The notes under the pieces were generated by a model. The model was given only the letters and a program-made list of their open reading frames with translations, searched no databases and was not told the origin of the DNA. A stretch of 64,000 nucleotides of DNA from Cyclobacteriaceae bacterium (lineage in GTDB: Bacteria > Bacteroidota > Bacteroidia > Cytophagales > Cyclobacteriaceae). The position numbers and the translations under genes are program-made. Of the stretch, positions 23,669-39,433 are shown piece by piece; position 1 is the first letter of the stretch, and each line of letters starts with the position of its first letter. The stretch covers positions 186,001 through 250,000 of the forward strand of contig JAEUUF010000022.1 in the NCBI GenBank assembly GCA_016787645.1. Reading direction: 5' to 3'.

Positions 23669-24118
23669 TTATCGCCGATACCGCGGCCGCGCACATGAGT
23701 CGAGGAGAGCCGCCATTGATTTGGATTCTATCAATCCCCGCTGGTGCCCCCAGGAATTATAAATATAGGTGGCAATCTCGGCCAGTTCGAGTTCTGTCAA
23801 TGATGGCACTCCGGGCATCGCCTGCACGTAGCTGTTGCCATTCACGCTGATTTCGCCCTGAAGCCCATATTTCATCCCACAAATGACCTTCTCAAAATTC
23901 TGGTCCATGTAGTCCGAAGGAGCTAACGGCGGATAGACCCGCCGAAGGCCACGACCGTCCTTCTGGTGGCAATTGCTGCAATGGACTAGGTATAGTTGCT
24001 CACCTTCCACCAGGTATTGCTGGAATTTTGGGTCCGGAGTATTACAGGAGGCCATTATCCCAACCAGCAGGGCAATCGCCAACCGGGCAAGCAAGAATTT
24101 TCCAGACTTACTCTTCAC
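23669..24118 (-). CDS. Monohaem cytochrome c lipoprotein
   Basis: A 149-residue exported c-type cytochrome. The GTG start at 24118 (VKSKSGKFLLARLAI) gives a Lys-rich lipoprotein signal with Cys in IMASC. The haem site is CSNCH, followed by GRGLRRVYPPLAPSDY; the axial Met is likely in VQAMPGV. It overlaps the 3' end of the SCO gene by 11 bases, so they are co-translated. It closely resembles the cytochrome at 39014 in the molybdenum hydroxylase cluster. Probably carries electrons in the periplasm; its partner is unknown. Confidence 0.82.
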   Translation of the reverse strand: MKSKSGKFLLARLAIALLVGIMASCNTPDPKFQQYLVEGEQLYLVHCSNCHQKDGRGLRRVYPPLAPSDYMDQNFEKVICGMKYGLQGEISVNGNSYVQAMPGVPSLTELELAEIATYIYNSWGHQRGLIESKSMAALLDSCARPRYRR

Positions 24119-24743
24119 GTCGCAGCTTCTTGATATCGCCAATAAGGCGGTTTACATCTTTTTCCTTTGTCCCGTCGTATTTGCCCCGAATTCGTCCCCG
24201 CTTGTCAACAAGGAGAAAAGCGCCGCTGTGAATGAATCCGTCAGGTTCGGTACGATCTTCGAGGGCTGTGGCGTAGTAACTTGTCTGGGCAATTTTATAG
24301 ATGGAATCCTTTACACCCGTTACGAAATGCCAGCGCTTGCTGTCCACACCGAGTCGCTTGGCAAAGTCATGGAGCAAAGCCACCGTGTCCCATTCCGGGT
24401 CAATGGTATGCGACAAAAGAAGGACCTCGGGCATTTCCTCCGTGGCTTCATAGACCCTCAACATCTGCGTCTTCATGATGGGGCATATGGTACGGCAAGT
24501 GGTAAAGAAGAAGTCTGCCACATAGATTTTGCCCGCAAAGTCTGCATTGGTTACCACGGTGCTGTCCTGATCTACAAACTGAAACGGCGCAATGGTGTGG
24601 TAGACAGTGTCCTTGCCATTGAACTCCCGTGTTCCGAGGACAGGCAATCGCTGATCCTGGGTTGAACAGGAAAACAAGAGGGCCATGCCCAGCAGCCCTA
24701 CAAGGTTAGTCGACACTAATCTCATCACCTTCATGAATCTCAT
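24108..24743 (-). CDS. SCO1/SenC family copper chaperone lipoprotein
   Basis: SCO proteins deliver copper to the CuA site of cytochrome oxidase or act as thiol reductases. This 211-residue protein has a lipoprotein signal (MALLFSC), a thioredoxin fold with the copper-binding CRTIC in FFFTTCRTICPIM, and the third ligand His probably in the later segment KRWHFVTG. Later ATG codons at 24734 and 24725 are also possible starts. It overlaps the MOSC gene upstream and the cytochrome c gene downstream. No cytochrome oxidase genes are in the window. Confidence 0.85.
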   Translation of the reverse strand: MRFMKVMRLVSTNLVGLLGMALLFSCSTQDQRLPVLGTREFNGKDTVYHTIAPFQFVDQDSTVVTNADFAGKIYVADFFFTTCRTICPIMKTQMLRVYEATEEMPEVLLLSHTIDPEWDTVALLHDFAKRLGVDSKRWHFVTGVKDSIYKIAQTSYYATALEDRTEPDGFIHSGAFLLVDKRGRIRGKYDGTKEKDVNRLIGDIKKLRREE

Positions 24744-25497
24744 GGCAATTAATTGGGATTACGTTTTGGCCAAAATTGATCTTCTCATTGAATCTCCGGT
24801 ATTTCGATAGGGTAAGCAACGGTTCTCTGCCCACTTCGCCGGTAGTTTGATCCACCGTTGTCAATACACACCGGCTGCAAGGTTTTACGCCCATAAATGA
24901 ATTGCTTCCTACGCTAAAGTTTCTCCATTGGTCTTCTTCATACGGCGCTCCGCCGGAGAAGACCAGGTTTGGACGAAATCGGTTCATCGGGACTGGCTTT
25001 TCCAGCCGTGCATTGAGATCGTCCAGCGAAGCCTGACCGATGATGAGTAGCGGGTAGCCGTCAGCGAGGCTGACATTTTCGTTGGCTAGACGGTACCGGT
25101 GGTCAACCGGGCGCTGGTTCTTCTCCGGGAAATTGACGAGCCGGCAATTCATTCCCAGTCGGTCAGAAAACCATTGATGATACACCTTGGGAGCAAGGAC
25201 TACCTCAACCGAATCGTCCCAAATCTGTGCGTGAAAGCTTTCTCCATGCTCGCTGCTGGGCAATAACAGACTCTCTTCCTGAAAAGAAACGGCAAACCCA
25301 TCGCCCTCCTGCCGTAGTTTGAAAAGGGCCATTTGTGGCCATGCGCGTTGGGTGAGAAACTTTCCTTGCTCATCCACCAACATCCATCGGCGATCGTACT
25401 GCAGGCCCTTCTCCATCACCCTGGAGGAAGAGAGGCGTATGCCCCCCAGGGATTTCACCGGGTAAATCCAGATTTCAGTCAGTATACGTTGGGTCAC
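24706..25497 (-). CDS. MOSC-domain molybdenum-cofactor protein (mARC/YiiM type)
   Basis: A 263-residue cytoplasmic protein with an N-terminal beta-barrel (ILTEIWIYPVKSLGGI at the start, DRRWMLVDEQGKFLTQRAWP) and a C-terminal MOSC domain with GVKPCSRCVLTTVDQTTGE holding the conserved Cys that ligands molybdenum. Members reduce N-hydroxylated compounds or sulfoxides. I chose GTG 25497; an upstream TTG at 25524 is less likely. It overlaps the SCO gene by up to 38 bases. A link with the molybdenum enzymes at 36-44 kb is possible but not shown by position. Confidence 0.82.
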   Translation of the reverse strand: MTQRILTEIWIYPVKSLGGIRLSSSRVMEKGLQYDRRWMLVDEQGKFLTQRAWPQMALFKLRQEGDGFAVSFQEESLLLPSSEHGESFHAQIWDDSVEVVLAPKVYHQWFSDRLGMNCRLVNFPEKNQRPVDHRYRLANENVSLADGYPLLIIGQASLDDLNARLEKPVPMNRFRPNLVFSGGAPYEEDQWRNFSVGSNSFMGVKPCSRCVLTTVDQTTGEVGREPLLTLSKYRRFNEKINFGQNVIPINCHEIHEGDEISVD

Positions 25498-25584
25498 AAG
25501 AGGCAGGGTCAAACCTGTCCGCAAAGATCACATTTAAGGCGAAACTTCGGGAATGAGGGCCGACATAGGGTTTGTAGCGCCACT

Positions 25585-27339: not shown

Positions 27340-29571
27340 CTACTTGGGCAGGTTGGTGCACACAATTTCACAAAGCCGGTTGCTCATGATATGCACCATT
27401 TCATCTTCCGGGCTCAGCGGCTGGGACTGCTGATTGCCCTGCTTTCCGACGAGGTTGATGGAGCGATCCGTCACTTTGACGAGGTTGGTGATATGCACCG
27501 GGCCCTGGGTGGGAATGGCCAGAACTTTTTCAACGTCACCGCGTTCACTGAATTTCACCAGGAAGGGATTGGACTCGCCCGCCTTGGCAATGTGTTCCTT
27601 TCCACTCAAGTCGCGGAGTTGCGTGTAGTTGCCTGCCAACAGGTGACCATCCATAATATTTACCAAGTCGACTATTTCGCCGGCCAGGGCAAGTTGGCGC
27701 CTCCACAGCCGGTCACCCAGGGCATTAACACCAACCAGTGCCAGGTTTTCAAGCGCTGCAAAGTTGGGGGCATCCTCCTGGCCTTTGAACAACAGCACAA
27801 ACGAGTTGCTCCGCTCACTGAAGGTGATTTTGCGTGCCACTGCGCGATCGGCTAGACGGACATGAAACTTCTCCTCTCCTTTTTCATTGAGATACACCAG
27901 CACATTTCTCGCTGTTGCCTGAGTCCGATGTACCGCGCGAACCACAAGCACGCATCCCTCCTGGGTGAGTTCAAAAGGACCCAGGAAATTATTCGCATCC
28001 GGCGCAGCAGCAAGACTGTCTACTTTGAACGCAAAGGTCTGCATCCAGCCCGGTTTCCCGTCCGGGAGCACCCTCGCTACAAACGTGGCCACCAGATTGG
28101 TCTTCTTGTCCGGCTTATAGGTTCCTGCCAGGTAAAGACTACCGTCGGGACTTCTGCGGTTGATCAGTGTTAAGGGGTCGCCTTTCTCCACGAGTTCCGG
28201 CCTGGGTGTTTGTATGGAAGCAGAAAGATTCCACCGGTTGTTGAATCGAATCACTTTGCTGGCCTCTGCCACCATGGGTGTCGTGACCATATGGAGCAAC
28301 GCGGATCGCAAGCCTCCCGTATACTGCACAAAGGTGACACGGATGTTTTCACTTTCTGATTCTATGTACTTATGAAGACCTTCCGATCCACCATAGTACT
28401 TCTCAATAAACTCGTGGTGCTTGCGAATCTTGTCCTTGGTGGCCCGATTACGGACCGTGGTCAACAAGGTATCCGCCGTACGGTTGGAATAGATCAACGC
28501 GCTGTATAATGTCGCATTGCGTTCTCCGTTAAGTGTATCGGGCACATACGTCTTGATTTTCAACAGCCAATCCTGCTTGAATTGTTTGTACTCAAGCAAG
28601 GCCAGCACGAGTGATTGCTTTTCATAATTATTCAGGTTGAATACTACCTGTTTGTCAAGGCCAACGGGCACCACTTCGCCGTTGGATGCCGAGATCTTGG
28701 CCAGGTTCTCCGTCAATCGCATTTCATTTTGGCCCAATCGGCTACGGAGTGTCAAAATCTCATCCGCGACCGCCTTGCGCACCTTGTCTACCCAGGTGCT
28801 GTAGTCCCAAAATTCGACATCGTTCGTAAGAAAGTTCATCCGGGTGATCAATCCGTCGAGGCGATACGTGACGATAGGTTTTACATGGTACTTCTGGTGA
28901 TGATCAGGAATTGGATACGTCTTGGTCAAGGACAAGTAGCGGTCGAAATGAAATCGGGCAGAGTCATAGCTTGATTTCAACGCGGCCAGTTTCTTGTCCA
29001 ATGTGGGGTCAAAGTACAGGTAGAGATCGTCCAGGCTGAGAAACTCACTGTTGATTTCGCTGAAGATTTTGACTGCTTTGTCATAAAAGACAACACTCTG
29101 CGTAAAACTTTGGTAGATCGGCGGAACATTCGTCAGAAATTGCATGGAGGAATCAAGGCCATGGGTGATCTTGTCAGCGACCCTGTTATATTCAACAAAT
29201 GGCCTCCCCTTGGCGTCTACGGTTTTGAAGATGGGTGCATAGAATTCATTGTTTCGGTCGACCTCTTTCTCGTCCACCAGTTGTCTTGCCTTGGTGAATC
29301 GCAACCGTGCCTGTGTGGCGTTTGCTATGGCATATTCGTAACGGGTCAGGACGTCAGCCGTTTTGTAGTTTGATTCATAGATCAGCGCAAGCCGGAAATT
29401 CGCGTTGGGATGGTCCAGATCATAAAGCAAATACTCTTTGAGTGTATTCTTCAGTTCCTCGTTGCCCATGCCTTGAAACGTTGGCACCAGGTCTTTGTAC
29501 CGGGGTTGTGCCGTGGCCGTGAGGGCGACGAGACAGAGGAAAAGAAAGCTGAAGGAAGTCGGAGTGCGCAT
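27340..29571 (-). CDS. Large exported protein of unrecognised family (third gene of CHAT operon)
   Basis: A 743-residue protein with signal peptide MRTPTSFSFLFLCLVALTATAQ. The N-terminal 450 residues look mainly helical, with TPR-like spacing (NANFRLALIYESNYKTADVLTRYEYA) and long helices. From about residue 470 it turns into beta strands with repeated phrases such as GSLYLAGTYKPDKKTNLVATFVARV and GEIVDLVNIMDGHLLAGNYTQ, like a beta-propeller. I do not recognise a named family. It starts 2 bases after the OmpA gene stop, so it is tightly coupled to it. Probably periplasmic or surface-attached, working with the two upstream products. Confidence 0.7.
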   Translation of the reverse strand: MRTPTSFSFLFLCLVALTATAQPRYKDLVPTFQGMGNEELKNTLKEYLLYDLDHPNANFRLALIYESNYKTADVLTRYEYAIANATQARLRFTKARQLVDEKEVDRNNEFYAPIFKTVDAKGRPFVEYNRVADKITHGLDSSMQFLTNVPPIYQSFTQSVVFYDKAVKIFSEINSEFLSLDDLYLYFDPTLDKKLAALKSSYDSARFHFDRYLSLTKTYPIPDHHQKYHVKPIVTYRLDGLITRMNFLTNDVEFWDYSTWVDKVRKAVADEILTLRSRLGQNEMRLTENLAKISASNGEVVPVGLDKQVVFNLNNYEKQSLVLALLEYKQFKQDWLLKIKTYVPDTLNGERNATLYSALIYSNRTADTLLTTVRNRATKDKIRKHHEFIEKYYGGSEGLHKYIESESENIRVTFVQYTGGLRSALLHMVTTPMVAEASKVIRFNNRWNLSASIQTPRPELVEKGDPLTLINRRSPDGSLYLAGTYKPDKKTNLVATFVARVLPDGKPGWMQTFAFKVDSLAAAPDANNFLGPFELTQEGCVLVVRAVHRTQATARNVLVYLNEKGEEKFHVRLADRAVARKITFSERSNSFVLLFKGQEDAPNFAALENLALVGVNALGDRLWRRQLALAGEIVDLVNIMDGHLLAGNYTQLRDLSGKEHIAKAGESNPFLVKFSERGDVEKVLAIPTQGPVHITNLVKVTDRSINLVGKQGNQQSQPLSPEDEMVHIMSNRLCEIVCTNLPK

Positions 29572-29573
29572 GG

Positions 29574-31679
29574 TCAAATGCTGAGGATTCTCAGTTCTAC
29601 CCGACGGTTGATCGCCCGGTTCGTTTCACTGTCATTGGCCACTTTGGCCTGGGATTCCCCATACCCTTTCGCCTCAAAGCGGGAAGGGTCAATCTTGTTC
29701 TCCATCAGAAAATTGGCCACGCTCTTCGCCCGTTGTTGGGACAGGGACTGGTTATAATTTTCTGAACCCAAATCATCGGTGTGAGCCGCCACTTCCACAC
29801 GGAGGGTTGGATTTTCTTTCATCAGCTGGATCACCCTGCGGAGCTCCGTATAGGAGATATCAGACAGCTGCACTGAATTGGATTCAAAATTGATATCGCG
29901 CAACGTGAGCTTGGCGTCCCGCTCGAGCTTCATCAACCGTACATCCAGTGGCGCAACGGCTCCTCCACCCGAAAGATCGAGCACGGTGGAATTAAACGCG
30001 TAGCCCTGGTCACTGGTGACCTCCACCTCATAGCGGTCACCAGCGCGCAGCGACACCAATTGATTGCCGCTCACTTCAATGACTTCGTCGCGATTCTTGT
30101 TCTTTAATACCACCTTGGCCTTCACCTTCGAGTTGTTCACCAAGTCAGAGACATTGACCATAACGTCCGTCTTCTCTGGCACGAGTTCGATATACTTTTC
30201 AAAATTGCGGTAGATCACCAGCCCGGAAACATTGAACTCCAGGATTTCGCTCTTAAAATGATTTGCGCTGAGGATGATCTCATACTCCTTTCCCACAGCG
30301 AGGTCAATGAAAGCACGACCATCTCTTGGATTATTCTTCATGTCGGCCACAAAAGCATTTTTCCCCTTCTCCCTAATTTTCACTTCGGCGGGAATCGGCT
30401 CATAAATTTCGTGATCGCTGATGTTCAGGGTCAATTTGATGGTCTTGAACAGGTTTACGTCCAGCACTTTTTCCTGGTACTTGTGCACGTCCCTTAAATC
30501 CAGCGATTGAGTAAAAGAAGAATACCCCGACTTCTTGTATTCAATATTGAAACTTTTGCCCACCGGCAAAACAAGAGTATACCTGCCGTCTGCCGGGTTG
30601 CTTTCCAGCTTCATCACTGTCTCTGAAGTCAATGCATCGGTTACCACAATCTCTGTCTCAATGCCCATTTTGGTGTCCTCATCCCGTACATAGCCCTGCA
30701 CGATGTTGTTCATGAACTGCCGCAGCTTGGGAGGTATGACGACAGAATAGATGTCACTATTATTATAGGTGTAATACATCAAGTCACCTTCCGCGGAGAT
30801 GGAAGGCAACTGGTCATCTTTCTCAGTGTTCACAAAATTCAGGGGCACTGGCATACTCCATTCATCGAGCTCATTGAGGGTGGATTGATACATGTCATAC
30901 CCGCCCTTTCCGCCGGGCCGATTGGAGGAGAAGATCAAGGTCCGTCCATCAGCCATGATCCGCGGTGCCTTTTCACAGTCCTGGTTGATTGGCCAGGGAA
31001 GCTTTTCCGGTTTCATCCACTTGCCCTCCTTATCCTTTGCCGCCTTATAGATACAGAGGCAGAACAGCGTTTCTTTTTCCTTGCGTAACAGCTTGTCCTG
31101 AGGACCTTGTTCATTCTTGCGAACAAAATAGAGCGTAGAACCATCAGCACTGATTGACGGGAAAGCTTCATATCCACCGTTGAAGTTGCCATTCTTGTCT
31201 GCGATTGGCTGTGAATTGATGGGTGCTCCCACGTTTTTGGGCTCGCTCCATCCATCACGGGTTCGCTCTGAAAAGAAGATCTCGTGATCACCCATCATAC
31301 CTACAGAACGGAAGTAATACATCGTGTTACCATCGAAGCTGAGGCTGGGGCCGCCGATCAGGTCAGTGGTGTCGCCAAAAGAATTTACGCGCGTGAGTGG
31401 AAGTGGTTTTCCCCAGGTTCCGTTTTCCATGCGGCTCTCATACAATGCGTACTTTTTGCCTTTCTCCGACTGTTCCAGCAGCATCGTTTTGCCATCGGCT
31501 TGGATGGTCGGAGCGTATTCCGTGACGGCCGGGTCGCTGATGGCGGGCTTCTTGGTTTGATTGTAGTACTCCATCGAATCCAACGGCTGAGGCGCAGGCG
31601 GATTCGCAGCCTGCGCCTGGCAATACACGGCGCGGCTGGATATACCTACAGCAACCAGAAAAAAAAGGAATACGCGCAT
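29574..31679 (-). CDS. OmpA-family protein with PD40 (WD40-like) beta-propeller
   Basis: A 701-residue exported protein (start ATG 31679, signal MRVFLFFLVAVGISSRAVYC). The first 300 residues carry PD40-type propeller blades: YAPTIQADGKTMLLEQ, GGPSLSFDGNTMYYFR, EAFPSISADGSTLYFVR, KAPRIMADGRTLIFSSNR and QLPSISAEGDLMYYTYN. Carboxypeptidase-regulatory-like beta domains follow. The C-terminus (about 590-701) is an OmpA peptidoglycan-binding domain with INFESNSVQLSD, VEVAAHTDDLGSENYN, LSQQRAKSVANFL and NRAINRRVEL. Similar PD40-OmpA proteins, such as PorE, anchor type 9 secretion parts to peptidoglycan. Here the neighbours suggest an anchor for the CHAT protein complex. Confidence 0.88.
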   Translation of the reverse strand: MRVFLFFLVAVGISSRAVYCQAQAANPPAPQPLDSMEYYNQTKKPAISDPAVTEYAPTIQADGKTMLLEQSEKGKKYALYESRMENGTWGKPLPLTRVNSFGDTTDLIGGPSLSFDGNTMYYFRSVGMMGDHEIFFSERTRDGWSEPKNVGAPINSQPIADKNGNFNGGYEAFPSISADGSTLYFVRKNEQGPQDKLLRKEKETLFCLCIYKAAKDKEGKWMKPEKLPWPINQDCEKAPRIMADGRTLIFSSNRPGGKGGYDMYQSTLNELDEWSMPVPLNFVNTEKDDQLPSISAEGDLMYYTYNNSDIYSVVIPPKLRQFMNNIVQGYVRDEDTKMGIETEIVVTDALTSETVMKLESNPADGRYTLVLPVGKSFNIEYKKSGYSSFTQSLDLRDVHKYQEKVLDVNLFKTIKLTLNISDHEIYEPIPAEVKIREKGKNAFVADMKNNPRDGRAFIDLAVGKEYEIILSANHFKSEILEFNVSGLVIYRNFEKYIELVPEKTDVMVNVSDLVNNSKVKAKVVLKNKNRDEVIEVSGNQLVSLRAGDRYEVEVTSDQGYAFNSTVLDLSGGGAVAPLDVRLMKLERDAKLTLRDINFESNSVQLSDISYTELRRVIQLMKENPTLRVEVAAHTDDLGSENYNQSLSQQRAKSVANFLMENKIDPSRFEAKGYGESQAKVANDSETNRAINRRVELRILSI

Positions 31680-31700
31680 AGCAAAGGGCAAGCAGCTGGA

Positions 31701-34700
31701 TCAGTTACCAATCAACACAAAAGCACCCCAAAAATAAGGTATTTGATACTTTTCCTTCATCTGAAGTTGGGCCTTGCGAAAGGCCTCATGTTTTTCTATT
31801 CCGGTAAGCCAGAAAGCATAGAAAGCATTCATCAACTCCTGCGTCGCCACATCGTCAACCTGCCAAAGACTCATCAGCACGGTATTGGCACCGGCGACGA
31901 GAAAGGAACGCTGCAGGCCGTAAACACCTTCCCCGTTTCGCACTTCACCCAAGCCGGTCTCACAGGCCGAGAGTACCACCAGTTCTGTCTGATCCAGATT
32001 GAGGTTCATCGCTTCATAAGCCGTGAGTACACCGTCTTCCAGCCGAAGAGATTCATCCCGATCCACACCGGCACCTGCCAACAGCACTCCTGATCGAAAG
32101 AGCGGGTTTTGGGCCAGCTCGCTATTTTCGGAATCATCGAGGTCGACGTCACTAAGGAAGAATCCATGGGTCGCGATATGGATAAGTTTGGGGTTAACTG
32201 ATTTCTTCAAGTTGTCCTCAGTCGCGTCTGACCGTTTGAAATTTTGTGCTTTCCAGGCATTTCTTCCCAACAAGCTGGCAATTTCGTCCACCTCCTTCTC
32301 AGTGGCCGGCAGTACTGGAATACTTTCCCCTTCGAATCCCATCGACCTGGCCAGGTTCCGCTTGGAAGAATGCGAGACCACATCGGCGGCCCCAAGATTG
32401 AAATCGGCAAAACCGAAGAGCACACCGCTGTTTTCGGAAGTTTTTGTCACTGATGCCCGTTCAATCAATTCCCGGGTGTTGCTCAGGAGGTGCAGCCGGT
32501 AATCATCAATAACGAACCGTCGTGCAGCGGCATCATAAAGCGAGTTGAAATTCACTTTATTAAATACTCCATCGCAACTCAGAAATACGGTAGAACCTGG
32601 CTTAACCCTTTCCTGAATGGGCTTCCAATAAAACGCGAAAGACACCGTATCGTTGACATGGTGCTTAATGGTGTTGCGGTGATATTTGAATTTGCGACTC
32701 TCCATCTGTGCGCCCAGCTTCCAGGTAACCAACTCCGGGGCGGTGCTTTCCTTTTTCAGAATCATCCCCACGTAATACACCGAGTCCTTGGTATACTTCT
32801 TCCGCACACGCAGAATCTCTACAGCGACTTCTCCATCGGCCAGCGATTTACGAACATCTATCCATCCGACTCGTTCTTTGTCGACCTGGGAACGGAAAGC
32901 ATCGGATCGGGATGACAACTGTTTTTCTACCTCGTTGGCGTGGGTCTCCAACTGGGTGAGATTCATTCCCAGTTTAAGGCGCTCTTCCTGCGATGCACTG
33001 TAGTACCGGACCAACTGTTCTTTGGTAGTAACCCAATCCCGGAAAAGGGCCTGGAGCCCAGGGTCGCCGCTGGAAAGGATGCGGGCTCTCACCTTGTTGG
33101 TCGAATTCAACAATATTGCCTTGGTGCCCAGTTGAAGATCATAGAGTTTCCCGATCGTCACGTCACGCTCTGCGGGAAGATGATAGAGGTACTGAACATA
33201 GAAATCCTGGTAGGCATCAAAGACCGGCTTGATCTTGGCATAAAAGGCACCTTTCTCCTTTTCGCTCAGCGCGGGGAAAAATTCCTCCAGTTGTTTCAGA
33301 TACTTCTCCACCACGGGTTCATAATAAACCTTCGCTTTTTCCCACTGGCCCTGGGCATGATAGACGCCAGCCAGTCCGTATAGCGATCGTGCATAGTCGG
33401 GGTGATCTTCCCCAAGCACTTCCTTTCTGAGCTCTACGCTTTTCTTCCATGTTGTTTCGGCCAACATGAAGTTGCCCTGGTCTTGGTAAAGTGCGGCGAG
33501 GTTGCTGAGCGTAGTAATGTAGGACGGATGTTTCATCCCAAAGTTTTGCGCAGTGAGCTGGAGCACCTTTTCCAGCATTCCCTTCGCCTCTTCCTTCCGT
33601 CCCAGTTTCTGGCAAAGCGTCGCCAGGTTCTGCAGGGTAATGGCGTACTGCGGGTGACGGTCACCTAATGTCTTTCGGTCGATCTCCAGGGCTTCCCGCT
33701 GCAAGGGTTCAGCGCGGTCGTAAGCGCCCTCCAACTGGTATAGCGCTGCAAGATTCTGTACGACGGTAGCATACTCAGGGTCTGACGTCCCCAATGTTTT
33801 TTCATAAATAGCCTTCGCTTCTTTGAGGGCCGCTTCCGCATCACGATAGTTGCCCAGGGTTTGATACAACAAGGCCAGGCTGTTTTGCACACCGGCAAAC
33901 TCGGGCGACGAAACACCTTTCTTGGTGCGAATGATTTCCCGCGCATTTTTTAGGTAGGGCTCGGCACGCGTGTAATCCCCGGTAACCTGGTGATAACGCC
34001 CAAGGGTCATCAGCCCATTGGCAAATTCCAGCGATTCTTTGCCGGCTGCTTGCTCATAGATGTGCAACGCTGAATCGAGAGCAACCTTTGCGCCAACCAG
34101 GTCGCCAAGTCTCATACGGAGCACAGCCTCATTCTCCAGTTCGCCGCCGTAAGACAGGCTGCTTTGGCCATACAAGTTTCGACGCGCACTCACCGATCTC
34201 CTCACCCAGGAAAGCGCATCATTAAACTTCCCTTGTGATTGGGACGAGGCCACCAGGTTATGAAGAGCGTTTGCATAATATCCGTCGCGACTTCTGTTGC
34301 CGGTTTCATAAGATCCTATCACCACCTGATACAATGAATCTGCTGCCCGGTAGTTACCTTTTCGCCACGCTACCTCGCCGAGACCATTGATCAACAGGTA
34401 TTTCTCTGCATCAGACACCAACGGTAGTTTGGCCAGCAATTGGGAAGCCTCGCGCAAAGTTGCTTCCGCTGCACTCACCTGGTTGGTTTGGAGCTGAACC
34501 ACTCCAGTCCGGTTGAGCACTACGAGGTATAATGTGCTGTTCGTGCCCACGCGCTTGGCAATAAGATCTCGACTTTCATTGATCCGCTCGAGGGCTTCCT
34601 TTGTATTTCCCCGGTCAGCACAGAGCGCCGCGAGGTTCACATTCGTTTCGGCATAATGAAGTTGTGTGGCCTCCGCTGTCTTGTCATAGTGCGACAGGGC

Positions 34701-35699
34701 CTCCCGGTAGTAAGCATCTGCTTTCTCAAGGTCTCCTCGTCCATGATAATACACGCCGAGCGAAGCGGCAGAAGTAGCGTAGGCTGCTTTTCCTTGCGCA
34801 GCTGAAAGCAATTGGGGTTTAATCTCTTCTCCTTTGGCGGGTTGACCAAGGTGATGGTAGTTTACCATCCTGGCCGCCAGAATTGAAAAATAACCCTCCC
34901 CCTCGTTTCCGGCAATGGACTGATAAGTTTTCTGGGCCTCTGCATAAGCCTCTTCCGCTTCCACAAACTGATGGAGTTGTTGACGTGCCTGGGCTTTCCC
35001 ATAGATAATCATCGGGTATGTCAGCGATCCCGTCATTGAAGTCGCCTTAAAAATCTCGATGGCTTTGTCAAACACAGCCAAAGCTTCCTTTCCCTCTCCG
35101 GATTCCAGGTCCACCATACCGGCATAGTAGTAGCCTTCGAGTATTTCCTCAGTGAATTCCCCTGTCTTTTCGGCAGCTACAAGTGCTGGATCCATCCACG
35201 CTTCTGCCTTCCTGAAGTCATTCAACAAATAGTAATTGGTAGCAATCCCCACGGCACAGGCAATCACATTGCTATTGTTCTCCTTATAATAGGTGAGAAA
35301 TAATGTCCGTGCTTCAGTCAAGGTCTGAATAGCTGCCCCATATTGGCCTAATTGCTCCTGGAAGAGTGCCTTGTTCGTGAGCGCCACCGCATAAGCGGTA
35401 TCCTTCTTCGGCTCCCTCACCGTGATTTCCTGGTCAGCAAAGGAAAGTCCTTCATGAAGATCCTGCTGAGCGTAGCAAATGGTGGACAACAGCCGGAGAA
35501 GCGCGGCGTGGGTCTCCATACTGGAAAGTCCTTCAGCCAGGTAACCATTTAGCGACTCAGTCGCCAGCGTCCTCGCTTCTTCGTTTTTGTTTTGGGAGAA
35601 AAGCTCCTGGGCCCGGTAGTATTTATCCTTCCAGACCTGCCCATTCGCATTCCATGAAGTGATTAAAAAGACAAACCCTACTATCCACGCCGGTTTCAT
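31701..35699 (-). CDS. Secreted TPR-CHAT (caspase-like peptidase) protein
   Basis: A 1332-residue exported protein. Start ATG 35699 gives the signal peptide MKPAWIVGFVFLITSWNANGQ; an ATG four codons upstream is less suited. About 18 tetratricopeptide repeats fill residues 25-830, many of the form YATVVQNLAALYQLEGAYDRAEPLQREALEI seen at shorter scale as NLAALYQ and HPDYARSLYGLAGVY. A coiled linker follows, then a C-terminal CHAT domain. Its catalytic dyad is visible: His in LIHIATHGFFLSD (about 1173) and Cys in VVLSACETGLGEVRNGEGVYGL (about 1243). CHAT proteases belong to the caspase clan. It is the first gene of a three-gene operon with the PD40-OmpA and 743-residue proteins. Target unknown. 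Confidence 0.9.
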   Translation of the reverse strand: MKPAWIVGFVFLITSWNANGQVWKDKYYRAQELFSQNKNEEARTLATESLNGYLAEGLSSMETHAALLRLLSTICYAQQDLHEGLSFADQEITVREPKKDTAYAVALTNKALFQEQLGQYGAAIQTLTEARTLFLTYYKENNSNVIACAVGIATNYYLLNDFRKAEAWMDPALVAAEKTGEFTEEILEGYYYAGMVDLESGEGKEALAVFDKAIEIFKATSMTGSLTYPMIIYGKAQARQQLHQFVEAEEAYAEAQKTYQSIAGNEGEGYFSILAARMVNYHHLGQPAKGEEIKPQLLSAAQGKAAYATSAASLGVYYHGRGDLEKADAYYREALSHYDKTAEATQLHYAETNVNLAALCADRGNTKEALERINESRDLIAKRVGTNSTLYLVVLNRTGVVQLQTNQVSAAEATLREASQLLAKLPLVSDAEKYLLINGLGEVAWRKGNYRAADSLYQVVIGSYETGNRSRDGYYANALHNLVASSQSQGKFNDALSWVRRSVSARRNLYGQSSLSYGGELENEAVLRMRLGDLVGAKVALDSALHIYEQAAGKESLEFANGLMTLGRYHQVTGDYTRAEPYLKNAREIIRTKKGVSSPEFAGVQNSLALLYQTLGNYRDAEAALKEAKAIYEKTLGTSDPEYATVVQNLAALYQLEGAYDRAEPLQREALEIDRKTLGDRHPQYAITLQNLATLCQKLGRKEEAKGMLEKVLQLTAQNFGMKHPSYITTLSNLAALYQDQGNFMLAETTWKKSVELRKEVLGEDHPDYARSLYGLAGVYHAQGQWEKAKVYYEPVVEKYLKQLEEFFPALSEKEKGAFYAKIKPVFDAYQDFYVQYLYHLPAERDVTIGKLYDLQLGTKAILLNSTNKVRARILSSGDPGLQALFRDWVTTKEQLVRYYSASQEERLKLGMNLTQLETHANEVEKQLSSRSDAFRSQVDKERVGWIDVRKSLADGEVAVEILRVRKKYTKDSVYYVGMILKKESTAPELVTWKLGAQMESRKFKYHRNTIKHHVNDTVSFAFYWKPIQERVKPGSTVFLSCDGVFNKVNFNSLYDAAARRFVIDDYRLHLLSNTRELIERASVTKTSENSGVLFGFADFNLGAADVVSHSSKRNLARSMGFEGESIPVLPATEKEVDEIASLLGRNAWKAQNFKRSDATEDNLKKSVNPKLIHIATHGFFLSDVDLDDSENSELAQNPLFRSGVLLAGAGVDRDESLRLEDGVLTAYEAMNLNLDQTELVVLSACETGLGEVRNGEGVYGLQRSFLVAGANTVLMSLWQVDDVATQELMNAFYAFWLTGIEKHEAFRKAQLQMKEKYQIPYFWGAFVLIGN

Positions 35700-35723
35700 G
35701 ATATCACACACTTCGAGTGGGTT

Positions 35724-35755
35724 GAAAACTAGTCAATTTGAGAGGCAAGGGCAAA
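35724..35755 (-). promoter_or_regulatory. Bacteroidota promoter of the CHAT operon
   Basis: The minus strand reads TTTG, 20 bases, TAGTTTTC, one mismatch from TTTG-N20-TAnnTTTG. Transcription would begin near 35717, about 18 bases before ATG 35699, which supports that start. Confidence 0.6.
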
Positions 35756-36300: not shown

Positions 36301-36774
36301 ATGGCTACCATCAAACTGCTCATCAACCAAAAACCTTTCACCATCGACGCCGATCCAAGGATGCCCCTGCTCTGGGCCCTTCGCGATGTGATCGGACTGA
36401 CCGGCACCAAGTACGGCTGTGGTGTGTCCCAATGCGGGGCATGCACCGTTCACCTCGATGGAAATCCGATCCGGTCGTGCTCCATCCCTGTTTCGTCGGT
36501 TGCCAACAAGAATATCACCACGATTGAAGGGCTTTCTCCAGACCTGTCGCACCCTGTTCAACAGGCATGGATTGCGGAGCAGGTACCGCAGTGCGGGTAT
36601 TGCCAAGGTGGCCAGATCATGACAGCGGCCGCTCTTCTCAAGCGAAATCCGAATCCTACGGATAAAGACATCGACGCCGCCATGCAGGGAAATATCTGCC
36701 GGTGCGGCACTTATCCCCGGATACGAAAGGCCGTCAAAACGGCCGCTCAACTTGCCAAAGCCACCACCAAATAA
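36301..36774 (+). CDS. iorA: Molybdenum hydroxylase small subunit, (2Fe-2S) protein (IorA-like), copy 1
   Basis: The small subunit passes electrons from the molybdenum site through two [2Fe-2S] clusters. The 157-residue protein has the plant-ferredoxin motif [20 protein letters not shown] (first cluster, with a fourth Cys in RSCSIP) and the second-cluster motifs CGYCQGGQ and GNICRCGTY. This is the xanthine oxidase-type small subunit as in isoquinoline 1-oxidoreductase (IorA) and aldehyde dehydrogenases. The large subunit gene begins 12 bases downstream. Confidence 0.92.
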
Positions 36775-36785
36775 CCAGCGGAATC

Positions 36786-38951
36786 ATGAACACAAACGAA
36801 CAAGCCATTTCCAGGCGCTCTTTCATCAAGGCCAGTGGCCTGACTGGTGTCGCGCTTACGCTTGGATTCTCCTTCCCGTCAAAGGCTGGTGATTCTCCCG
36901 ATATACTCAACGCTGCTGATGCGGGATCAGTTGAACTCAACGCGTGGATTTCGATTGACTCCGCCGGCAAGGTGACACTAACGAATCACCGCGCTGAAAT
37001 GGGCCAGGGTTCATTTCAGTCCGTGCCCCAGATGATCGCCGAAGAACTTGAGGTAGACCTTAACCAGGTTTCCATTCAGTTTGCCCCGGGTAATCCAGGA
37101 AAATATGGAAGCCAAATCACTGGTGGGAGCTCGACCATCCGGGGTTCGTATGAACGAATGCTGCGTCTCGGAGCTACCGCGCGTGAGATGCTCATAGAAG
37201 CCGCCGCAAAAAAATGGGAGGTGCCTGCCAATCAGTGTTATGCGGAAAACGGTAAAGTGTTTCATCGTCCATCGGGTCGATCCATGGGGTACGGCGAGCT
37301 GGTAACGGAAGCTGCAAAACTTCCAGTGCCTTCTGCCGTAAAGCTCAAGGATCCCCGTGACTATAAAATCATTCGCAAGCCACTCCCCCGGCAGGACAAC
37401 CCTGCTAAAATCAATGGCCAGGCAATTTTCGGGCTTGACAAGCGTGTGCCCGGGATGCTTTTCGCGGTCGTGGAGCGCAACCCTCGCTTCATGGGAAAAG
37501 TAAAAAGTTTCAACTCCGACGAGGTGCTTAAACTTCCCGGTGTGAAGTATGTAATGAAAGTGGAGCGAGACGTATTCGGCAATCTGCTGGAAGGGGTAGC
37601 GGTGATCGGCGACTCAACCTGGTCCGCATTGCAAGGCCGTAAAGCACTCAAAGTAGAGTGGGACGACAATGGCTTCGAACATCTCAGCACCCAGCAATTA
37701 TATGACCGCATGCGTACTGACCTGAAATCCAGAAAGTTTATTTCTGCCCGGACACAGGGGAACTTCGATTCGCTTTTTGACAAAGCAGAGAAGAAAGTAG
37801 AAGCACTTTACGAAACACCCTACGAGTCGCACAGCAACATGGAGCCCCTGAACTGCATCGCCGATGTCAAGGATGACTCGTGCGAAATTTGGGGACCGAT
37901 TCAGGCGCCGGATTGGATCCAGGGCGCTACTGCGGGCTTCCTCAAATTACCCCCGGAAAAAGTTACCGTGCACATGACCTTCCTTGGCGGAGGCCTTGGG
38001 CGAAAGGCATTCACCGATTACCCTTATGAGGCCGTTGCACTTTCCAAAGCAATCAAAGCCCCGGTCCAGGTAGTCTGGACACGAGAAGATGATATGACCA
38101 TGGGACCCTTCCGGCCAGGCATGGTATATCAATGTCGTGGCGCCGTGAGTCGTGGCAACCGGATCGCCGCGTTAGAAATAATCGCTGCCGGACAAAACAT
38201 GAATACGCAAGAACCTGGTGCCGACAAGTCAGCGTATAACCTGGACGTGGTGGATGGATTGCTCAAGCCTTATTTTGATTCCATTCCTCACTACCGATTC
38301 GGTGACGCACCCCTGGAAGCACCCATCCCGGTGATGTGGTGGCGTTCAGTGTATGCCTCCACCAACGGTTTCGCTTTTGAGAGCTTCTTTGATGAGATGG
38401 CCGTGGCGGCAGGAAAAGATCCCCTTGATTTTCGTTCTCAACACCTGGGTGAAGCCCGTTACCAGGCTTTGATCGCCAAACTGCGTGAAGTCAGTCATTG
38501 GGACGGCCGCAAGAAAAACGAAGGCTATGGTGTGTCCATCACGGAATGTTTCAGCAGCATCGTGGGCGAGGTATGCAAAGTATCGCGCAATGCCGCAGGG
38601 AAAGTTCGGATCGACAAGGTGTGGGCCGTTATGGATTGTGGCTGGTATGTAAACCCGGACATCATTCGGGCCCAGGTTGAAGGCAGCATCATCATGGCCT
38701 TGGGTGCAGCCACCAAACACGCTACCACATTTTTGGATGGGAAAGCCGTTGAACACAATTTCGACACCTACAAAATGGGTCGGATTGGCGAAGCCCCGGA
38801 CATCGAGGTGCATATCATGGACAACCAGGAACGCGCTGGCGGTGTGGGAGAACCCGGGCTTCCTCCCTTCACCGCAGCGTTGACCAATGCCATATTCGAC
38901 CTCACCGGAAAACGGATCCGCGTACTCCCGTTCTCCTTGGATGAAGTATGA
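36786..38951 (+). CDS. iorB: Molybdenum hydroxylase large subunit (IorB-like), copy 1
   Basis: The large subunit holds the molybdopterin cytosine dinucleotide and hydroxylates an N-heterocycle or aldehyde. ATG 36786 gives 721 residues. The N-terminus SRRSFIKASGLTGVALTLG is a Tat signal, so the assembled complex is exported folded, with the small subunit carried along. Two repeated halves follow, including AEMGQGSFQSVPQMIAEEL, GGGLGRKAFTDYPYEAVALS, and near the end GGVGEPGLPPF, where the Glu is the expected catalytic base. The substrate cannot be told from sequence. Confidence 0.9.
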   Translation: MNTNEQAISRRSFIKASGLTGVALTLGFSFPSKAGDSPDILNAADAGSVELNAWISIDSAGKVTLTNHRAEMGQGSFQSVPQMIAEELEVDLNQVSIQFAPGNPGKYGSQITGGSSTIRGSYERMLRLGATAREMLIEAAAKKWEVPANQCYAENGKVFHRPSGRSMGYGELVTEAAKLPVPSAVKLKDPRDYKIIRKPLPRQDNPAKINGQAIFGLDKRVPGMLFAVVERNPRFMGKVKSFNSDEVLKLPGVKYVMKVERDVFGNLLEGVAVIGDSTWSALQGRKALKVEWDDNGFEHLSTQQLYDRMRTDLKSRKFISARTQGNFDSLFDKAEKKVEALYETPYESHSNMEPLNCIADVKDDSCEIWGPIQAPDWIQGATAGFLKLPPEKVTVHMTFLGGGLGRKAFTDYPYEAVALSKAIKAPVQVVWTREDDMTMGPFRPGMVYQCRGAVSRGNRIAALEIIAAGQNMNTQEPGADKSAYNLDVVDGLLKPYFDSIPHYRFGDAPLEAPIPVMWWRSVYASTNGFAFESFFDEMAVAAGKDPLDFRSQHLGEARYQALIAKLREVSHWDGRKKNEGYGVSITECFSSIVGEVCKVSRNAAGKVRIDKVWAVMDCGWYVNPDIIRAQVEGSIIMALGAATKHATTFLDGKAVEHNFDTYKMGRIGEAPDIEVHIMDNQERAGGVGEPGLPPFTAALTNAIFDLTGKRIRVLPFSLDEV

Positions 38952-39013
38952 CCTGCTTGGCATAATGATTGCCGTGAATTTATTTTGTGACGATTACCTA
39001 TATCCCCTTTGGC

Positions 39014-39433
39014 ATGAAATCCACTATTGCATTGACCCTCGTTGTTGCTTCCGGAATTTTAATGTTCGGGCTTTCCTCTTTTCAGAAGAAGCCTGCCATT
39101 GATCTCAAAGCCAGCATGGCCAGAGGGCGTGAAACGTATGTCACTTATTGTCTTTCGTGTCACATGGATCAGGGCGAAGGGATCGAAGGGGTATACCCAC
39201 CGTTGGCAAAGGCGGATTACCTCCTGGCAGACAAGAACCGGGCAATCCGGCAAGTGCTGTATGGCACTTCCGGGGAGATGACCGTAAATGGCAAGAAATA
39301 CAACCTCGAAATGACGGGTGTAGACATTACCGACCAGGAAGTCAGCGATGTGATGAACTATATTCTCAACTCCTTTGGCAACAAAGGAGGCACTGTTACA
39401 CCCGAACAGGTGGCCACCATACGTAAAAAGTAG
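39014..39433 (+). CDS. Monohaem cytochrome c of the molybdenum hydroxylase cluster
   Basis: A 139-residue exported cytochrome (start ATG 39014, signal MKSTIALTLVVASGILMFGLSSF). The haem site is CLSCH, followed by GEGIEGVYPPLAKADYLL, and the axial Met is probably in NLEMTGV. It sits between the two iorAB pairs and is the likely periplasmic electron acceptor for both. It is a close relative of the lipoprotein cytochrome at 23669: both have CxxCH, then VYPPLA, then a GEISVNG or GEMTVNG strand. Confidence 0.88.
   Translation: MKSTIALTLVVASGILMFGLSSFQKKPAIDLKASMARGRETYVTYCLSCHMDQGEGIEGVYPPLAKADYLLADKNRAIRQVLYGTSGEMTVNGKKYNLEMTGVDITDQEVSDVMNYILNSFGNKGGTVTPEQVATIRKK

Follow-up and report, generated by a model that had tools for sequence, protein, structure and literature searches.

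A three-gene cassette is conserved in some Cytophagales, and its constant part is a pair of proteins, one combining a PD40 propeller with an OmpA domain (PD40-OmpA) and the other without family match ('UNK'), which is paired with an interchangeable clan-CD protease. The cassette, that is, is not CHAT-specific. An earlier, sequence-only reading of this DNA had instead posited a CHAT-centred unit of three genes; the gene order that it described has held up across genomes, whereas the centring on CHAT has not, as it is PD40-OmpA plus UNK which stays constant, with a C14 caspase found at the other end of that pair in nine loci. The explanation that we consider to be best, at a probability of roughly 60%, is an extracytoplasmic caspase-clan protease cassette, i.e., one that is peptidoglycan-anchored, triggered, and periplasmic, with a fixed adaptor along with a clan-CD protease.

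The term 'window' is used here for the whole stretch of DNA that was analysed, which is 64,000 nt long and corresponds to positions 186,001-250,000 of the forward strand of contig JAEUUF010000022.1 (Cyclobacteriaceae bacterium, assembly GCA_016787645.1). On its minus strand three ORFs lie head to tail, in the order TPR-CHAT, PD40-OmpA, and then UNK (Table 1), all with predicted signal peptides. 'UNK' is a working name, for a protein of 743-745 residues. The intergenic gaps are 9 nt (TPR-CHAT to PD40-OmpA) and -4 nt (PD40-OmpA to UNK), and with the signal-peptide-like N-termini these bear out the earlier description of three exported products in a tight minus-strand operon. For the first gene the ATG at 35699 is a more likely start than the GTG.

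Table 1. Positions, within the window, of the cassette genes along with their principal features
Feature	Position	Strand	Description
TPR-CHAT gene	31701..35711	(-)	1336 aa from GTG; 1332 aa from ATG at 35699; signal peptide, TPR superhelix, C-terminal CHAT
PD40-OmpA gene	29574..31691	(-)	705 aa; signal peptide, PD40 propeller, carboxypeptidase-regulatory-like region (under cut-off), OmpA_C
UNK gene	27340..29577	(-)	745 aa from TTG, 743 from ATG two codons in; 4-nt overlap with PD40-OmpA stop
Possible Bacteroidota-type promoter, TTTG-N20-TAGTTTT	35725..35755	(-)	82-nt gap before TPR-CHAT ATG
Predicted signal peptide of TPR-CHAT, Sec/SPI-like	35640..35699	(-)	MKPAWIVGFVFLITSWNANG, then Gln; cleavage site by eye
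CHAT domain	31704..32627	(-)	residues 1029-1336; dyad His1182 (codon 32166-32168) and Cys1250 (codon 31962-31964)
OmpA_C peptidoglycan-binding domain	29604..29888	(-)	residues 602-696 of PD40-OmpA
UNK helical half	28282..29499	(-)	residues 27-432; AlphaFold2 model
UNK beta-strand half, propeller-like	27355..28254	(-)	residues 442-741; AlphaFold2 model and Foldseek

That the operon has its own promoter, at 35755-35725, is plausible. The sequence-only reading had asserted as much, and a TTTG-N20-TAGTTTT pattern is indeed seen in the upstream gap; the pattern was, however, fitted after the site was seen, with its last base left off from the Bacteroidota consensus, and its 3 occurrences in the window versus 4.6 expected from shuffles represent no enrichment. 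A sigma-70 scan found no site in the 82-nt gap. Intrinsic terminators, as scanned for, are not in excess either (10 sites versus 10.7 in shuffled sequence). Neither the upstream DUF2141 gene nor the downstream glycogen phosphorylase gene was retained as a cassette member, as such genes, judged by size, flank the closest relatives only. Further out are found, by eye, SCO-like and cytochrome c-like genes downstream (23669-25524) and a molybdenum hydroxylase-like pair plus another cytochrome c-like gene upstream (36301-39433), all of which looks like ordinary metabolism.

Relatives were gathered by similarity to PD40-OmpA or to UNK, with CHAT never used as bait. UNK matches were found in 136/296 genomes of the family sample, 17/148 of the order sample, 6/395 of the class sample, and 4/395 of the phylum sample, and from a PD40-OmpA search of named records the best 78 of 116 loci were taken. 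The surroundings of these matches were ORF-annotated, giving 90 records and 67 distinct loci. Classification took all 90 of the given loci, with four short UNK paralogues (L037, L038, L040, L044) and the window genome's other CHATs (L041-L043) standing outside of it. Among the 67, 62 possess a PD40-OmpA core and five have UNK without PD40-OmpA (L034, L035, and L039, plus L154 and L164 at contig ends). Six cores are not assessable, the contig ending inside PD40-OmpA (L049, L155, L158, L159, L162, L169), which leaves 56.

In 44 of these 56 assessable cores a TPR-CHAT gene is directly upstream, in nine a C14 caspase gene is directly downstream of UNK, and in three there is neither; a clan-CD protease gene, that is, adjoins the core in 53/56, with CHAT and C14 seen together in none, though five of those 44 loci (L053, L057, L069, L046, L047) have no visible sequence downstream of the core. 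UNK follows PD40-OmpA in 59/59 loci with contigs that are long enough, those of L053, L057, and L069 ending inside PD40-OmpA. In one locus (L061) the cassette genes are frameshifted, being broken into two ORFs each. Among the carriers are cultured, named species, such as Chryseotalea sanaruensis, Marinoscillum furvescens, and Thermonema rossianum. Recurring as it does in 44/56 assessable loci which were gathered without CHAT bait, the operon order is more than chance. The rare co-occurrence against which the sequence-only reading had set its proposal was, in other words, not what the neighbourhoods displayed.

Four observations on the loci count against a protease-cassette reading. First, three cores are protease-less, i.e., L056 (507 nt upstream, no tblastn match), L165, and L174, with CHAT matches elsewhere in the genomes of the latter two numbering 4 and 1, respectively; these 3/56 show either a separable adaptor and protease or a protease that may be encoded elsewhere. 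Second, UNK occurs without PD40-OmpA, twice in one genome (L034, L039) and once in another (L035). Third, the cassette is absent from most of the order genomes sampled, with presence in at least 11/148. And fourth, no gene common to all loci was noticed as a possible substrate. Two side observations may be added. Upstream of the protease-less core of L165, with three ORFs between, is a fusion of PorP/SprF barrel and OmpA domain (L165:4186-5799). A cassette is present as well in a MAG titled Rickettsiales (L078), the CHAT of which groups with that of Marinoscillum pacificum, and which probably is a mislabelled or mixed bin.

A more general link between caspases and PD40-OmpA proteins was considered and rejected, as none of 43 more distant loci (L080-L122) has a UNK-labelled ORF or an adjacent CHAT, some of these loci being cut by contig ends and one (L113) lacking an annotated PD40-OmpA ORF. 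CHAT is found 2 to 7 ORFs away from PD40-OmpA in seven of them (L097-L102, L106), and a Pfam scan of nine nearby proteins in six distant loci returned no clan-CD protease.

Exchange of the protease is seen in two lineages, with the C14 loci consisting of eight from Flammeovirga and one from a Microscillaceae MAG, in each of which a C14 gene with predicted signal peptide directly follows UNK. Of these C14s, two (L031, L025) were scanned with Pfam, giving TPR plus Peptidase_C14, with the other seven assigned by similarity; SGHG and DAC dyad motifs are present in 9/9. Within the stretches as taken there is no CHAT-labelled ORF in the C14 loci and no C14-labelled ORF in the CHAT loci, though the Microscillaceae contig does carry a CHAT about 20 kb from the core, i.e., beyond the stretch annotated. 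The eight Flammeovirga loci have one more protein upstream, with an N-terminus resembling a signal peptide, the one scanned being a DUF4384 match below cut-off. Two of these loci also have a second caspase gene following the cassette C14 (L033:13043-15904 and L036:3055-5922), which for L033 combines WD40-type repeats with C14, as scanned, and which for L036 was assigned by similarity.

Clan-CD matches are few per genome, ranging among 13 genomes from 0 to 17 for C14 and from 2 to 10 for CHAT, and by this informal argument chance adjacency to the core in separate lineages is unlikely. In a PD40-OmpA tree of 57 rows longer than 550 aa, the core from Microscillaceae groups as sister to those of Thermonema, which bear CHAT (SH-aLRT 99), and the C14 label needs at least two changes on starred branches, as seen in what is a quick tree with long-branch warnings. 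(In that tree a score threshold gave L069, a cassette member truncated where its contig ends, the label 'dist', and L049 has the label 'none' despite being cut on its upstream side.) Protease type thus is out of step with the core tree, i.e., a constant core is combined with a variable protease family. The cassette C14s are close together in their own tree, with one non-cassette row among them.

Whether CHATs were recruited to the core more than once is a matter on which no claim is made. The CHAT set of 97 was reduced to 81 by removal of identical C-termini, with L061 left out, and its 31 non-cassette members come from six genomes, rather than being all CHAT matches of the genomes surveyed. 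In a bootstrap analysis of 62 of these 81 domains, after manual removal of 9 non-cassette rows, most of them on long branches, and of 10 cassette rows that were near-duplicates, cassette CHATs form one clade in 0/200 trees. An AU test nevertheless does not reject a single origin (p 0.226). Independent recruitment accordingly is suggested by the trees, with one origin being compatible with the AU test.

One rival explanation for such conserved order is that the genes are merely co-transcribed, without their products sharing a complex. Adjacency alone is indeed no proof of a complex, and UNK is found without the others in two genomes (G049 and G079). Gene order is kept, though, despite UNK identities of just 19-25% between the families compared, and a different protease family is found at the opposite end of the same core. 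Mere co-transcription is an improbable account, the least probable of those weighed here.

Turning to the protease as found in the window, Pfam assigns to it many TPRs along with a CHAT domain (PF12770) at 209.2 bits, versus a cut-off of 24, covering residues 1029-1336. The dyad that the sequence-only reading had described as intact, His1182 and Cys1250, is present in the translation, and loss of that dyad from orthologues, which the same reading had named as grounds for its refutation, is not what is seen: H/C is kept in 44/44 cassette CHATs. Among 22 of these, as aligned, the dyad columns are invariant despite identities to the window fragment of down to 29%. An intact active site is supported at the level of residues. 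An AlphaFold2 model of residues 141-1336 has a mean pLDDT of 83.4 and a pTM of 0.72, with pLDDT below 50 at fragment residues 970-983, 1046-1056, 1058-1065, and 1113-1121, the catalytic His and Cys being at 1042 and 1110 in that numbering. Mobile active-site loops would fit these stretches, low confidence proving nothing alone.

Foldseek searches with this model ranked human separase first (9hn0_B; E 9.5e-15, rmsd 17.5 A), with type III-E TPR-CHAT proteins at ranks 15, 18, and 19 (7y84_C, 8eey_B, 7zoq_A; E 4e-11 to 1e-10). Alignments are loose, with rmsd of 13-24 A, and as many other top matches are generic helical-repeat proteins, part of the score is from the repeats. Separase consists of a helical superhelix with a C-terminal clan-CD protease, and is eukaryotic and intracellular. 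Csx29 of type III-E CRISPR (Craspase), which we take to be cytoplasmic, resembles the window protein in its TPR superhelix and C-terminal CHAT with His/Cys dyad, as well as by the above Foldseek match. Its protease is switched on allosterically via the TPR domain, and it differs in having Cas7-11 as partner and RNA as trigger (PMC10028731), whereas cassette products carry export signals. Membership in type III-E was rejected, as the adjoining genes are PD40-OmpA, UNK, and DUF2141 rather than cas7-11 or csx30/31. HetF of Anabaena likewise combines CHAT with TPR and is tied to envelope and division machinery, but its CHAT is N-terminal (residues 1-555), there is one predicted transmembrane segment, and no OmpA partner is noted in the portion of PMC8406250 that was accessible. 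In Bacteroides fragilis, CHAT proteins are found beside T6SS effectors, with one apparently transmembrane (PMC11854122).

Export of the cassette products is supported by their N-termini. Signal peptides, as called by a simple heuristic, are predicted in 36/40 CHATs, 43/52 PD40-OmpA proteins, 56/58 UNK proteins, and 9/9 C14s, counted without truncated, frameshifted (L061), and short rows, the heuristic being not very specific, i.e., positive also in 162/392 neighbouring ORFs. Gln is at +1 following the predicted cleavage site in 138/159 cassette proteins versus 73/392 neighbouring ORFs, and this fits the Bacteroidetes Q-rule, by which Gln follows the signal-peptide cleavage site (PMC5837995). 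No type IX C-terminal sorting domain is among the Pfam matches of the window proteins, which makes the periplasm likelier than the surface as their location.

CHAT proteins, according to the sequence-only reading, are not usually described outside of the cytoplasm. This stands for the open-access literature, among the matches listed, where we found no paper saying that exported CHATs are common in this group. It does not stand for the genomes. The window's genome (4.0 Mb, 28 contigs) has four CHAT matches in all, and the heuristic calls signal peptides in 4/4 of these plus in 6/6 others tried, all of one type of about 950 residues; exported CHATs, going by such predictions, look ordinary in this group. 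The other three of this genome (G000; C5:182956, C15:137755, C25:29607), all signal-peptide positive, have no PD40-OmpA or UNK relative within 19 kb of surroundings.

UNK, too, was correctly described as without known family: no Pfam, NCBIfam, or PADLOC family matches it at E 0.01, and a PDB sequence search gave nothing (best E 0.78). Its AlphaFold2 model (29 sequences; mean pLDDT 88.8, pTM 0.69) consists of long helices as far as residue 432, with beta strands predominating from residue 442. Foldseek matches include CylK, GH43, strictosidine synthase, and paraoxonase, all of which presumably are beta-propellers, over about 300 aligned columns and with TM to query of at most 0.3. The long form of UNK is found in at least 41/296 family genomes, with most other matches listed covering the N-terminal half only, in a paralogue of about 600 residues that is common in Cyclobacteriaceae genomes and that shares with UNK just this helical half. 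That short paralogue (e.g., L040:8244-10031, genome C15:57810-59021) is near topA- or SIR2-type genes, by eye, in 3/4 loci (L037, L040, and L044, but not L038).

For PD40-OmpA, Pfam assigns OmpA (PF00691) at 78.1 bits and PD40 at 59 bits, in agreement with the earlier description of a PD40 propeller paired with a peptidoglycan-binding OmpA domain, while CarboxypepD_reg is below its cut-off. Thr638-Asp639 and Arg654 of OmpA_C are invariant in 8/8 aligned orthologues, and such conserved Asp and Arg residues (D639, R654) presumably bind diaminopimelate. Anchoring to peptidoglycan via OmpA_C is, as far as residues can indicate, supported. PD40-OmpA scores far below cut-off on two NCBIfam models, i.e., 141.7 bits on PorE (NF052230; cut-off 600) and 175.7 bits on the CHU_0125 'outer membrane integrity' OmpA model (NF053607; cut-off 620), and membership in the CHU_0125 family was rejected on that score.

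Those two matches bear on another rival explanation, that the cassette encodes an envelope or type IX secretion structural or assembly factor, with a PorE-like anchor, UNK as scaffold, and the caspase-fold protein serving as interaction platform or as cargo maturation protease. PorE does resemble PD40-OmpA, as it consists of TPR, a five-bladed propeller, a carboxypeptidase-regulatory-like region (CRD), and OmpA_C, but it is a lipoprotein (PMC7192894), whereas PD40-OmpA of the window has no TPR match (Pfam) and no lipobox (by eye). Four other proteins of this genome furthermore outscore it on the PorE model (419, 296, 194, and 193 bits), though none is above cut-off, and with the score under cut-off and TPR missing, PorE membership was rejected. 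As this rival would have it, genes for a PorP/SprF-OmpA protein and for a protein with CHU_C, a type IX signal, are found near the protease-less core of L165, three small ORFs intervening; yet presence of the cassette among order genomes is patchy, and the conserved dyad makes a purely structural role of the caspase-fold protein unlikely. A structural or type IX assembly role we hold, on balance, to be unlikely.

The extracytoplasmic protease cassette, which is the preferred reading, may be envisaged as follows. All three products would be secreted through Sec. PD40-OmpA would have its C-terminal domain on peptidoglycan with its propeller displayed, and UNK would supply a second, helical-plus-propeller scaffold, the two together forming a fixed wall-anchored adaptor. 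On that adaptor a clan-CD cysteine protease with repeats of its own (TPR-CHAT here, TPR-C14 in Flammeovirga and the Microscillaceae MAG) would dock, remaining inactive until the TPR or propeller surfaces encounter either a ligand or an envelope protein that has been disturbed. Once active, the protease would then cut one or a few envelope substrates. It is the physical complex, the periplasmic rather than surface location, the gating, and the proteolysis which here we infer.

Triggering of an envelope protease by phage or by rivals would, alternatively, make the cassette a defence or conflict system, similar to type III-E TPR-CHAT or to gasdermin-activating caspases. CHAT and caspase-type peptidases are effectors in bacterial conflict systems (in part per PMC10907252). 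PADLOC, though, as run on the three proteins, gives only generic TPR and ZorB/MotB-like OmpA matches, none of which is system-specific, Pfam scans of five window proteins turned up neither nuclease nor gasdermin, and the export signals carried by cassette parts also argue against defence. Such a role seems to us improbable, more so than the type IX or structural one, and a known anti-phage defence system was rejected given no PADLOC support for the three proteins.

In the open-access literature, among the matches listed, no description of this cassette was found, absence being weak evidence, nor was an open-access paper found that pairs a CHAT domain with OmpA. In bacteria it is chiefly as immune effectors of the cytoplasm that triggered caspase-like proteases are known. 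As a tentative proposal, held at somewhat under even odds, the Cytophagales may possess an envelope counterpart of these cytoplasmic triggered caspases, that is, a periplasmic, wall-anchored caspase platform on which the executioner has changed at least twice between CHAT and C14 over a fixed, two-protein sensor and anchor. The cassette would provide a handle on UNK, a family which is unannotated in the libraries searched, as well as on further exported proteins of the CHAT and C14 types in these genomes, and with the protease swapped on a constant core, partner specificity becomes directly testable. If true, a conserved set that is exported and wall-anchored, and in which the caspase is exchangeable, would carry the triggered-protease principle to the envelope.
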